Shown here piece after piece: positions 19,817 through 25,695 of a DNA stretch of 45,201 bases. The first letter of the stretch is position 1; each line of letters begins with the position of its first letter. Source of the stretch: Candidatus Woesearchaeota archaeon (GTDB taxonomy: Archaea; Nanobdellota; Nanobdellia; Woesearchaeales; GW2011-AR4). Both the position numbers and the translations under genes were made by a program. The notes beneath the pieces were generated by a model that worked only from the letters and a program-made list of their open reading frames with translations, had not been told where the DNA came from and did no database searches. The stretch is taken from contig JAGVXS010000058.1 of NCBI GenBank assembly GCA_018303685.1, forward strand, positions 1 to 45,201, read 5' to 3'.

Positions 19817-19960
19817 CTAATCCAGAACCAAGCCGCATTTCTTGCAGTAGAATTCCTCATTTGCATACTCAATGTCCTTGCTGCCGCAGTCAGGGCACTG
19901 CCTAAGCAAGTCCTCTCTCTTGACAGTTTCCAGACTTCTGACATTCCCTGAATAAGCCAT
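19817..19960 (-). CDS. 47-aa TFIIB/TFB-type zinc ribbon protein
   Basis: MAYSGNVRSLETVKREDLLRQCPDCGSKDIEYANEEFYCKKCGLVLD; Cys pairs as in the TFB N-terminus; own BRE/TATA at 20001-20015. Confidence 0.75.
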   Translation of the reverse strand: MAYSGNVRSLETVKREDLLRQCPDCGSKDIEYANEEFYCKKCGLVLD

Positions 19961-20000
19961 TATTAACCCCCAAATTATATACTCGGGAACGAGATTATAC

Positions 20001-20015
20001 CATTTATAAAGGTTT
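20001..20015 (-). promoter_or_regulatory. BRE/TATA of Zn-ribbon gene (AAACCTTTATAAATG)
   Basis: Matches the promoter pattern at rps3ae and nadM. Confidence 0.6.
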
Positions 20016-20134
20016 CGTTTTGCAAAGCAAAACGGAACACCGAAAAACACAGTTTTTCGATTGTTTCGGAATTGAAAATTCCGAATACCCTGAAATCTGC
20101 GATTTCAATGGTTTCGGTTTTAAAAAACTAAGCC
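20011..20134. repeat. tandem hairpin array: four perfect hairpins plus one degenerate, about 49-bp composite period
   Basis: CGTTTTGC-AAA-GCAAAACG (20016-20034), CGAAAAAC-ACA-GTTTTTCG (20041-20059), TTCGGAATT-GAA-AATTCCGAA (20065-20085), TGAAATC-TGC-GATTTCA (20091-20107); GTTTCG recurs at 20012, 20063, 20111. Confidence 0.8.
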
Positions 20135-20150
20135 CAGAAATTTAATATGC

Positions 20151-22214
20151 TCAAACCACCACGCTCACACTTTCCTGCTTCTGCACCCTTATTACATTCT
20201 CAACAAAGCTTTCTATCTTGCTTTCATGGCTTACAATAATCACTTGCTTCATGTTCAATTGCTCTAAAACATCCCTTACCTTGTCAAGCTGCTCTGTGGA
20301 AAAGCCGTCAGTAGGCTCGTCAAGCATTATGATGTCCTTGGTTTTTATGCCGGCAACAATGTCGTTTATAACCTTGTTCAGCGCCAATCTGTATGACAAT
20401 GCAACAGAGGTTTTCTCGCCGCCGCTTAAATTCTCAATATAAGTCTCATAGCCGTCCTGCTCTATTACCGGAGTGAATTCCTCGTCAACCCTTACATTCA
20501 TTGCCTCGTCCTCAAGCAAAATGTCAAACCAGTTCCTGAACAGTTCGTTAAACTGGGAATGTATGTTAACCATCACATGCTTTTCCATAGTTGACATTAA
20601 ATTTACAAACAATTCATCAATCCATCTGCCCAATTGGGAGATATAGCTTAGTTTTTCCTTTGCCTTCTGCTTTTCATTTATCTCCTTTTCCAGATTCAAA
20701 ATCAGCCTTCCGGCTGACTCCTTTTCTGTCTCATACTTTCTCCTCTCAAGCTCCAGAAACCTCTCCTGAGGCAGCAATTCGTCAATTTCTTTTTTCACAG
20801 CCCTGTATTTTTCCTCTGCTTCAGCATATTTTTCTATTTTTGAGTGCAATTCCGATTTTTTTGAATTCAGCAGGCCTATTTCCCTTTTTATCACTTCCTT
20901 TAGCCTGTGCTTTTCACCCCTCAGGCCGATTTTCTCATTCAGGTTGTCAAATTTTATTTTCAAAACGCTGAAATGGCTCTGCTCCTTTATCAATGAATCG
21001 CGCTCTTTTTTCAGCTGAAGCCTTATTTTTTCGAGCTTTGACTCTTCCTCCCTGCAGCCTTGCACCTGCTGAACCAGCTCGCTGTATTTCGCGCTTTCCC
21101 TCAGATGAATGCCATGCTTGTGGCTTTCATCAACCTTCTGCTCGCACACCGGGCATATTTCCAGGGATTCCATCTTCCTTATAGTGTCATTGCAGTGCTC
21201 TATTTTCACCTCAAGCTCTTTTATCCTCTTTATCGCATTTTTGTAATTCTGCTCCGCCTCGCCTATTTCATTTTCTTTCTCATCGATTTTTTTTGTTGTC
21301 AGGCTTAAATCCTCCAGCCTTTTGCCTTCAACATCCTTTTTAAGCGCTTCAGTCTGGGACTCGAGCTTTTTTATCTCCTCGTTCAATCTGTTATTCTGCT
21401 CTATTCTGTGGCTGAGGTTTGCTTCCGCAATTCCAAGCTCTTTTCTGAGCAAATTCAGCTCGTTTATTTCCTTTTCAATCGCTTCAATGGAAATTTTTTT
21501 GCTGTTGATTATTCTTTTTATCTCGTCTATTTTGGGCGCTAAGCTGCTTAACAGATTGCCAATATCCAGAATCTCAATTTTTTTCGCCTCCAAATCCTTT
21601 TTCTTGTACTCTAAGTCCAGAATGTAGCCTTCAAGATGCTTTTTCTTCTCCTTCAATGAGGATGTTATGATTTTTGAATTATCCTTTGCCCTTTTGTACT
21701 TGTCTATGTTGAAAACCTTTCTCAAAGTTTCAAGCCTTGTATCCTTGTCGTCATAAAGTATTTTTTTCATCTCCTCCTGTGGAGTGTAAACAGTATAGCG
21801 GTAAATCAAGTCCTTGCCTTTTTTTACCAGGTCTTTCGGATAGCCGAGCAGTTCCAGGGCAATCGCCCTTAGTTCCTCTGCTGTGCCTTCTTTTTTTATT
21901 CCATTTGTTATTACATAGCCGGCTTCCTGCTTTATATCTTCATTGCTTCTTTTCAGGGCCCTTTTTATTATCACCTCCTTGTTGTCAATCTGCATTTTCA
22001 ATTCGACAGAGCCTTCCTTTTTGCCGTGCCTCAGCAAAGTGTAAGCAGGCAATTCGCCTTTCTTTGCGCCGAAAATAGCAAACTCTATTGCAAGCAGAAT
22101 TGTTGACTTTCCAGAGCCAATGTCGCCAGCCAGAAGAACAGAGCCTGAAGGAAAATTTATCTCTGCATTTTCATAGCTTCTTATATTGTGCAGCTTTATG
22201 GATTTGAGGAGCAT
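20151..22214 (-). CDS. Rad50-like SMC-family ATPase with zinc hook (CPVC)
   Basis: Walker A GDIGSGKST, CPVCEQK hook, signature NLSGGEKTSVALSYRLAL, Walker B DIIMLDEPTDGFS. Confidence 0.9.
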   Translation of the reverse strand: MLLKSIKLHNIRSYENAEINFPSGSVLLAGDIGSGKSTILLAIEFAIFGAKKGELPAYTLLRHGKKEGSVELKMQIDNKEVIIKRALKRSNEDIKQEAGYVITNGIKKEGTAEELRAIALELLGYPKDLVKKGKDLIYRYTVYTPQEEMKKILYDDKDTRLETLRKVFNIDKYKRAKDNSKIITSSLKEKKKHLEGYILDLEYKKKDLEAKKIEILDIGNLLSSLAPKIDEIKRIINSKKISIEAIEKEINELNLLRKELGIAEANLSHRIEQNNRLNEEIKKLESQTEALKKDVEGKRLEDLSLTTKKIDEKENEIGEAEQNYKNAIKRIKELEVKIEHCNDTIRKMESLEICPVCEQKVDESHKHGIHLRESAKYSELVQQVQGCREEESKLEKIRLQLKKERDSLIKEQSHFSVLKIKFDNLNEKIGLRGEKHRLKEVIKREIGLLNSKKSELHSKIEKYAEAEEKYRAVKKEIDELLPQERFLELERRKYETEKESAGRLILNLEKEINEKQKAKEKLSYISQLGRWIDELFVNLMSTMEKHVMVNIHSQFNELFRNWFDILLEDEAMNVRVDEEFTPVIEQDGYETYIENLSGGEKTSVALSYRLALNKVINDIVAGIKTKDIIMLDEPTDGFSTEQLDKVRDVLEQLNMKQVIIVSHESKIESFVENVIRVQKQESVSVVV

Positions 22215-23844: not shown

Positions 23845-25695
23845 CTATTTTATTGGCTTTTTGCTCAGCCTGAATGCAAGAAATCCTACAACCAAAATTG
23901 TTGCCATGATAATTCCCCATATGAGCCCTTTATTCTCTGTGAACCTGCTGTCTTTTTCATCGCAGGCATCGCCTTTGCCGTCTTTGTCTATGTCTGATTG
24001 CTTATACTCGTCGCCAATATAAACTTTTGGATTGGAATCGTACAGGCAGTTGTCCTCAAAATTCATGACGCCATCGTTATCGTAATCTTCACATAAATCC
24101 CCTATGCCGTTATTATTCTGGTCCTCTTGCTTCGGGTTGCTAACTTTTGGGCAGTTGTCCCTTGGGTTTATAATGCCATCTTTATCGGTATCGTCACAAA
24201 TGTCACCAATGCCATTATCATCACTATCAGTTTGCTCAGTATTTTTTATTTGAGGACAATTGTCGCAGGCATCTCCCAATCCATCGCTATCTGTATCTTT
24301 CTGCTCAGCATTCTGAATTTTAGGGCAATTATCTTTATAATTGGCAATGCCATCATTGTCATCGTCCTCACAAACATCGCCTATGCCATTGTTGTTTTTG
24401 TCAAACTGGTTTGGATTATAGCCAAGAAAGCAGTTGTCGCAGGCATCCCCAATCCTGTCATTGTCAGAATCCTTTTGGTCGGGATTGTTTGCATTGATGC
24501 AGTTGTCTTTTGCAAAGGAAACGCCGTCATTGTCCACATCCTCGCAAGCATCTCCAACGCCATTTCTGTCTTTATCGCTTTGGCCGGAATTAGCTGCAGT
24601 CACGCAATTATCAAGCGAGTTAATAACTCCGTCATTGTCGTTGTCGTCGCAGACATATCCTCTGCCATTTAAGTTGTCATCATACTGGTCTGGATTAAAG
24701 CTAGACGGGCAGTTGTCGCAGGAATTTCCTATGCCATCATTGTCGCTGTCTTGCTGGTTTGAATTAGCGGAGTTTGGGCAGTTGTCGCAGGCATCCCCAA
24801 TGCCGTCGCTGTCGCTGTCCCTCTGGTCAGCATTGCTTGTTGTCGGGCAATTGTCTGATAATGCCCCATCACCATCGCTATCGTAATTGTAATTTGTATT
24901 TTGCTGCTGCCCGCCCAACGCCAGGATAGGGGTTGTTTTTTTAGTGGATAACTGAGAAATATCGTAACTAGCAGCCTGCGCTAATTTGTTTCCATAATAA
25001 AGCCCGTATTCCTTTCCTGATTTTGCGGAAAATATGGCTTGAGCGGAGTATGCGCCGTAAATTTCAATTTCGTTTATCACCAAGCTTTGGGTGTGCCAGA
25101 AAGAAAACTTAAGGTACCTAAACTCAACAGGAGGGTAAGTTACGGTTCTTGTGTCGGATATGCCGTATTTTGCCTTGCTCTTGATTATCTTCCAATCTTG
25201 GTTGTCGTTGCTGCCCTCAATTTGCACATCTGTCCATGTGTAATCATTGTTCAAGCTCCATATTTTTGCTTTGTCTGTAAGCACAGAATACTTTAAATCA
25301 ACAATAAACCACGCATAATTTGGATCGGTTATTGAATCAATCTGGAAATAGGCATTGTCATTGCTGCTGTAGTCTCCGTCAATAAGGTTGCTGGCGCCAA
25401 AATTCACGCCTCTGAAATCTGCCCTTGCAGAGCTGGCAGCTGTTATGCTGCCTTTATGCTTTAAAGGGATTTCCTGCCCGTCTTCTGTTATTCTCAGGTC
25501 AGAGCCGTCTGGCTTCATATAACTAAGGACTTGAGAATCAAGCTTTACTATGGCAGGCTCGTTGATTGAAGCAGGGATATTTATTTTTTTATAGTATGGA
25601 TATTGATTGGTGTCTAATGCCAAAACCAGCAGAAAATTGGATATAAAAAATAATGCAACGAATGCCAATTTGAACAGGTTATTTTTATTTTTCAT
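23845..25695 (-). CDS. surface protein: signal peptide, DUF3999/discoidin-like N-terminus, thrombospondin type 3 repeats, C-terminal TM
   Basis: Many DxDxDGxxDxxDNCPxxxNxxQ repeats; TM near C-terminus GLIWGIIMATILVVGFLAF. Confidence 0.88.
   Translation of the reverse strand: MKNKNNLFKLAFVALFFISNFLLVLALDTNQYPYYKKINIPASINEPAIVKLDSQVLSYMKPDGSDLRITEDGQEIPLKHKGSITAASSARADFRGVNFGASNLIDGDYSSNDNAYFQIDSITDPNYAWFIVDLKYSVLTDKAKIWSLNNDYTWTDVQIEGSNDNQDWKIIKSKAKYGISDTRTVTYPPVEFRYLKFSFWHTQSLVINEIEIYGAYSAQAIFSAKSGKEYGLYYGNKLAQAASYDISQLSTKKTTPILALGGQQQNTNYNYDSDGDGALSDNCPTTSNADQRDSDSDGIGDACDNCPNSANSNQQDSDNDGIGNSCDNCPSSFNPDQYDDNLNGRGYVCDDNDNDGVINSLDNCVTAANSGQSDKDRNGVGDACEDVDNDGVSFAKDNCINANNPDQKDSDNDRIGDACDNCFLGYNPNQFDKNNNGIGDVCEDDDNDGIANYKDNCPKIQNAEQKDTDSDGLGDACDNCPQIKNTEQTDSDDNGIGDICDDTDKDGIINPRDNCPKVSNPKQEDQNNNGIGDLCEDYDNDGVMNFEDNCLYDSNPKVYIGDEYKQSDIDKDGKGDACDEKDSRFTENKGLIWGIIMATILVVGFLAFRLSKKPIK

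Follow-up and report, generated by a model that had tools for sequence, protein, structure and literature searches.

A hairpin array at a zinc-ribbon gene promoter belongs to a dispersed family of non-coding elements in Woesearchaeales archaea

The array and the promoter that carries it

The window, meaning the whole stretch of DNA analysed here, is a complete contig of 45,201 bp from a genome assembly of 1.13 Mb. Two of its genes, both on the minus strand, flank the array: a gene for a 48-aa protein that holds a TFIIB-type zinc ribbon only (19817..19963; Pfam PF08271, E 5e-9), served by the array-bearing promoter, and a rad50-like ATPase gene (20151..22214; Pfam AAA_23, E 2e-15), whose 3' end points towards the array. 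The original prediction had put the array between the rad50-like stop and the zinc-ribbon promoter. The array does face the rad50-like 3' end, but it overlaps the promoter rather than lying beside it, as its first GGTTTCG stands directly against the putative TATA box of the zinc-ribbon gene, TTTATAAA (20003..20010, minus strand, for leftward transcription), at the position of a BRE. The position of this box is conserved in orthologues.

Four perfect palindromes with arms of 7-9 bp and loops of 3 nt had been described from the letters, and we confirmed them at 20011-20117. Unit 1 opens with a motif that we call A, here GGTTTCG (20011..20017), which reads CGAAACC on the minus strand and occupies the BRE position. 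It is followed by the palindrome CGTTTTGC-AAA-GCAAAACG (hairpin 1, TTTTGC-AAA-GCAAAA, 20018..20032), by A', CGGAACACC, an imperfect inverse of A (20033..20041), and by hairpin 2, CGAAAAAC-ACA-GTTTTTCG (20041..20059). Unit 2 consists of its own A, TGTTTCGG (20062..20069), hairpin 1, TTCGGAATT-GAA-AATTCCGAA (20065..20085), A', CGAATACC (20082..20089), which has an extra T with respect to a perfect inverse of GGTTTCG, and hairpin 2, TGAAATC-TGC-GATTTCA (20091..20107). Read in order, the motifs that frame the hairpins are GGTTTCG, CGGAACACC, GTTTCGG, CGAATACC and GGTTTCGG. The last of these (20110..20117) had been read as opening a third, degenerate copy; it is instead the closing repeat of the array, A'', matches the empty site of relatives, TTTTTAAAGGTTTCGGTTTT, and is followed by GGTTTCGGTTTT, as in array-free relatives. 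The plus strand of the array folds at -40.2 kcal/mol (z = -5.3, with none of 200 dinucleotide shuffles as good) and the minus strand with z = -3.6. The strict pattern of unit 1 (GTTTCG...CGRAAYACC) has one occurrence in the 1.13-Mb assembly.

A stand-alone 48-aa TFIIB-type zinc ribbon without a cyclin-fold core (mini-TFB) is conserved beside rad50 in several species and genera, and in three genera or more the hairpin array is found at its promoter (the window, L046 and L116, the protein sequence being the basis for L116). Orthologous loci in other species of the genus retain the zinc-ribbon promoter, where most read TTTTTAAAG(G/C)TTTCGG and then have no array (L024-L028, L036, L037); next to the TATA box, most array-free orthologues have GGTTTCGG or GCTTTCGG. 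The window reads TATA-GGTTTCG, hairpins, GGTTTCGGTTTT at this promoter. In G017, the locus (L029) has one hairpin, identical, together with A', to the third of the window and set directly on the TATA box; G011 has the locus twice, the second time with one diverged unit, and in G029, a genome of a different genus, this gene carries two units whose stems are unrelated. The region between the zinc-ribbon and rad50 genes also holds, in L023-L026 and L029, a variable gene of about 600 bp that is absent from the window and apparently belongs to a fast-evolving family of secreted proteins. Elsewhere in the window, at 23845-25695 on the minus strand, inspection of the translation revealed an apparently secreted protein of 616 aa in which numerous Asp-rich repeats resemble thrombospondin type 3 and a membrane anchor lies at the C terminus.

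A dispersed family with conserved shape and rigid spacing

The array is made of two units of a widespread, dispersed family. We built a covariance model from six seed units, with shortened stems or loops and with the TATA box deliberately left out. Unit 2, itself one of the seeds, matches the model at 20062-20116 with 70.8 bits. At E-values up to 1 there are 33 matches in the home genome, strong matches occur in many genomes of the home family, and among 127 genomes sampled across Woesearchaeales, 17 genomes of other families have matches at E up to 0.001, E-values being rough and the genomes mostly incomplete MAGs. Other copies in relatives and covariation, which the original prediction staked itself on, were both found. 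About 90 copies, a subset of all those found, were inspected.

In these copies the order is A, hairpin 1, A', hairpin 2, A'', the last repeating A. The A motif is GGTTTYG or a variant, and A' is CRAAYACC or CRAAGCC, an imperfect inverse of A, the imperfection being one added base (CGAATACC) or a G that faces T (CAAAGCC). Spacing is rigid: the edge of the TATA box lies 14 bp from the centre of the first hairpin in 56 copies, and the two hairpin centres are 26 bp apart in 39 copies and 24-28 bp apart in 81 of 86. Units are mostly 49-55 bp long, with a mode at 53 and a typical length of about 52-53 bp. Loops are mostly of 3 nt, with TTT and GAA the commonest.

The inner six pairs of each copy's own arms are complementary at 95.6% (hairpin 1) and 97.6% (hairpin 2), with respect to 53% and 64% when arms are swapped among copies. 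The claim that structure rather than sequence is conserved is thus supported by many more copies and by this swap of arms; stems vary from copy to copy, although the statement that they differ completely was slightly overstated, as 5' arms in the family are usually A-rich (GAAAAT-like) with complementary 3' arms. Since the covariance model itself scores pairing, independent evidence of palindromes comes from searches by frame. The frame-only pattern GTTTCG-N(6-36)-CGAATACC has 7 matches in 36 genomes of the home family, and the interior is a hairpin in all 7; its GGTTTCG version, run over 288 genomes of the order, has 7 matches outside the family, of which at most one holds a short hairpin. 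A longer pattern matched 15 archaeal records (Woesearchaeota, Nanoarchaeota and Archaeon GW2011_AR15) and 12 bacterial ones in a scan of 84,980 named genomes, with both hairpins present in 12 of the 15 archaeal matches and in 1 of the 12 bacterial matches (arms of at least 7 and at least 6 pairs, G-T allowed). Carriage by viruses was considered and set aside, as neither of two viral pattern matches is a hairpin.

Several copies depart from the common layout. In other families, identical units stand in tandem (L167/L270, L273, L274), while L109 and L113 (G031) are long mosaic arrays with several unit types, for example CCGAGTCAGTTGGTCTGTCGC stems beside standard units. L273 (G066:C12) is built of near-identical GGTCCGG units, and its last A' stands against a TATA box of the opposite direction (CGATACCTTTATAAA), suggesting that A' can also fill the BRE position. 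At L087 (G004) and L136 (G005) an element-like double hairpin covers the region where a histone-like gene starts (MGRKISTIPKASVARILIKAG...), where GATGG gives an apparent start codon and the placement differs from the usual one. Copies of lineage g8 mostly end in GCTGG and those of g1 are mixed, a distinction too weak to carry an argument.

The constant neighbour of the family is a TATA-like sequence, against which A stands in 64 of the 90 printed copies, the same juxtaposition as in the window. As the model contained no TATA box, this argues for placement at promoters. Start codons most often lie 30-35 bp from A, the distance that short-leader promoters would give. A itself may act as a BRE. 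The genes downstream, identified by inspection, are functionally mixed and share no common function: they include EF-1alpha, SMC, PdxS, CarA, PurL, PurA, proteasome beta, SecD/F, histone and ribosomal proteins, as well as small HTH, AbrB-like and zinc-ribbon regulators. On the far side, the neighbouring gene is co-directional in 32 of 50 cases and divergent in 18, and 14 more were unassigned.

These data bear on the roles listed in the original prediction, which included a terminator, a 3'-end stabiliser or a small RNA, formed by hairpins that follow the far-side gene. Such a reading could appeal to the window, where the hairpins come after the rad50-like stop, to a fold that is stable as RNA and to the majority of co-directional far-side genes. 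It is nonetheless weak and, in our judgement, very improbable, given that the constant partner is the TATA box, that the far-side genes are divergent in more than a third of cases and that 3-nt loops dominate. In the inner stems, G-T and A-C departures are few, and neither strand is consistently favoured (11 vs 4 for hairpin 1, 3 vs 5 for hairpin 2); the surplus of G-T sits in the outer portion of hairpin 1, on the side of the A:A' helix. A search of Rfam 15 with the array found no family near its gathering score (best 27.1 bits vs 70 required). The RNA roles are accordingly not supported, while the other proposed role, an element acting at the level of DNA as a cruciform or as single strands, survives. 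The lock to promoters, the rigid spacing, the stems that are free in sequence yet paired and the frequent differences in presence all point to a DNA-level element and argue against an ordinary terminator.

Filled and empty orthologous promoters

For five element-bearing promoters, we compared the upstream regions of the orthologues within the genus. At the PRC-barrel gene, a clear element is present in 1 of 16 genomes (G000), and G003, a close relative that is 90-97% identical over the compared pieces, has none. At the CBS gene, the element is present in 2 of about 14 genomes (G000 and G003) and missing from the other 12-13. At the gene of L119, 2-3 of 15 genomes carry it, G018 and G006 with different second stems and G015 in partial form. 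Clean alignment gaps of 51 bp separate G018 from G017 and G006 from G008, and AGTTTTCG (or AGTTTTCT) flanks the insert on both sides, making an apparent direct repeat of 8 bp (AGTTTTCG in G018/G017); in the pair G000/G003, the two flanks differ. Empty promoters carry a BRE-like motif, suggesting that A exists before the element arrives. The orthologous SMC promoters of L102, L130 and L144, from one genus and identified by inspection, all have an element, each with different stems.

A strong rival to gain and loss of a module is a structural promoter element kept by selection, in which promoter activity would be altered by structures immediately upstream of the BRE (hairpins, cruciforms or phased A-tracts), for example through supercoiling-sensitive extrusion, through curvature of the DNA or by offering a dimeric DNA-binding protein a platform. 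We regard this as a real possibility, if not a probable one. It would account for the fixed spacing, with 14 bp to the TATA box, 26 bp between centres (about 2.5 helical turns) and 52-53 bp per unit (about 5 turns), and for the A-rich 5' arms and T-rich 3' arms. Elements with different stems also recur at the same promoters across several species or genera (SMC at L102, L130 and L144; mini-TFB in the window, L046 and L116; and PdxS), which a selected element would also explain. Most orthologous promoters in the genus nevertheless do without the element, the target genes have no common function, and neither an operator nor a bend needs arms that are complementary base by base.

The elements might also be a by-product of mutation, with no function and no enzyme, if foldback synthesis and template switching made and maintained perfect palindromes and slippage between A repeats multiplied or deleted units. 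In its favour, A' and A'' frequently follow whichever variant of A is present locally (GTTTGCG/GTAAACC/GTTTGCG in L141, AGTTTTCG/CGAGAACT/AGTTTTCG in L119), tandem units are identical, and copies within a genome resemble each other no more than they resemble those of other genomes, with a mean identity of 69.3% vs 68.8% for the copies fetched. We consider this account improbable, because it leaves unexplained why all copies have two hairpins at fixed spacing within a family-wide frame and why the A:A' pairing is persistently imperfect at one place.

A candidate mobile module and its relation to known systems

The reading that we favour, with tentative confidence, is that the array represents two copies of a non-coding module of about 52 bp that is recognised by its shape and gained and lost at the boundary between BRE and TATA box. 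In such a scheme, recognition would rest on the folded shape, in which inverted and direct copies of the 7-8 bp A motif separate two short hairpins, and gain would be an enzyme-driven insertion, after which a new A lies beside the TATA box and A'' forms a direct repeat at the opposite end. Additional insertions, or duplication from one A repeat to another, could build tandem arrays, and units might also be precisely lost between the A repeats. In favour of this reading are the frame-only matches, hairpins in 7 of 7 cases as against at most one of 7 outside the family, the paired hairpins of the archaeal matches in the scan of named genomes, the constant TATA neighbour, the complementarity of own arms, the rigid geometry, the mostly empty orthologous promoters with their clean 51-bp gaps, the tandem arrays of identical units and the mixed downstream genes. 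The similar identities within and between genomes argue against a simple or recently active copy-paste repeat. Apparently identical copies in G168 proved to be the two contig ends of one tandem array and so provide no evidence of transposition.

Mobility is also disfavoured by our failure to find a mobilising enzyme among Y1 transposases and integron integrases. In these mostly incomplete MAGs, which limit such tests, Y1 counts and copy number are uncorrelated (rho 0.13, p 0.44), G000 has no Y1 gene, the motif is absent from 10 inspected Y1 loci, and no ends shared with the element were seen at inspected Y1 loci; we rejected a link to HUH/Y1 enzymes. No integrase above the TIGR02249 cut-off was found in 36 genomes.

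Our literature searches returned no description of these elements, although three known systems resemble them. PATE-type MITEs of IS200/IS605 likewise have two imperfect hairpins and no terminal inverted repeats; such MITEs make no target duplication and have their ends in common with a Y1 element, and our elements seem to differ from them, with an apparent 8-bp direct repeat in G018/G017 but differing flanks in G000/G003 and, as described above, neither a motif beside the inspected Y1 genes nor a correlation with Y1 counts. The core consensus of integron attC sites consists of the boxes GTTRRRY and RYYYAAC, whereas the core here is GGTTTYG, AGTTTTCG and variants, and there are no gene cassettes; with neither the core boxes nor an integrase in place, identity with attC was rejected. 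The two are alike in other ways: attC sites, including those of archaeal integrons, are folded sites conserved in shape and variable in sequence (PMC9668308), and our elements share with them diversity within a genome under a conserved shape, direct core repeats at unit borders and arrays beside a promoter. Palindromic repeats tagged with GTAG or CGTC, among them REP, REPIN and BIME, are short intergenic stem-loops with short loops and a conserved tag, which in REP/REPIN lies at the hairpin's foot (PMC3116915, PMC3733652), and REP-like repeats form dimers, clusters and sub-families with complementary stem changes (PMC3733652), all features that our elements recall. In contrast, the elements are archaeal, have the frame GGTTTYG/CRAAYACC in printed copies and no GTAG/CGTC tag, are locked to a TATA box, have no linked Y1 (RAYT) gene that we could find, and vary in their stems between almost all copies of one genome, without near-identical copies.

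In conclusion, the array belongs to an order-wide, previously unnamed family of non-coding elements in uncultured Woesearchaeales archaea, which brings together traits rarely combined: exact placement at the core promoter, conserved DNA shape with free stem sequence, and differences in presence between close species. It is a speculative and rather doubtful extension that an archaeal, shape-recognising recombination system inserts and removes gene-less two-hairpin cassettes at promoter BREs, repeatedly rebuilding the promoters of housekeeping genes. If the elements are mobile, they would reveal an insertion system that recognises structure and targets promoters; if they are selected, they would represent a shape-based promoter element in Archaea.
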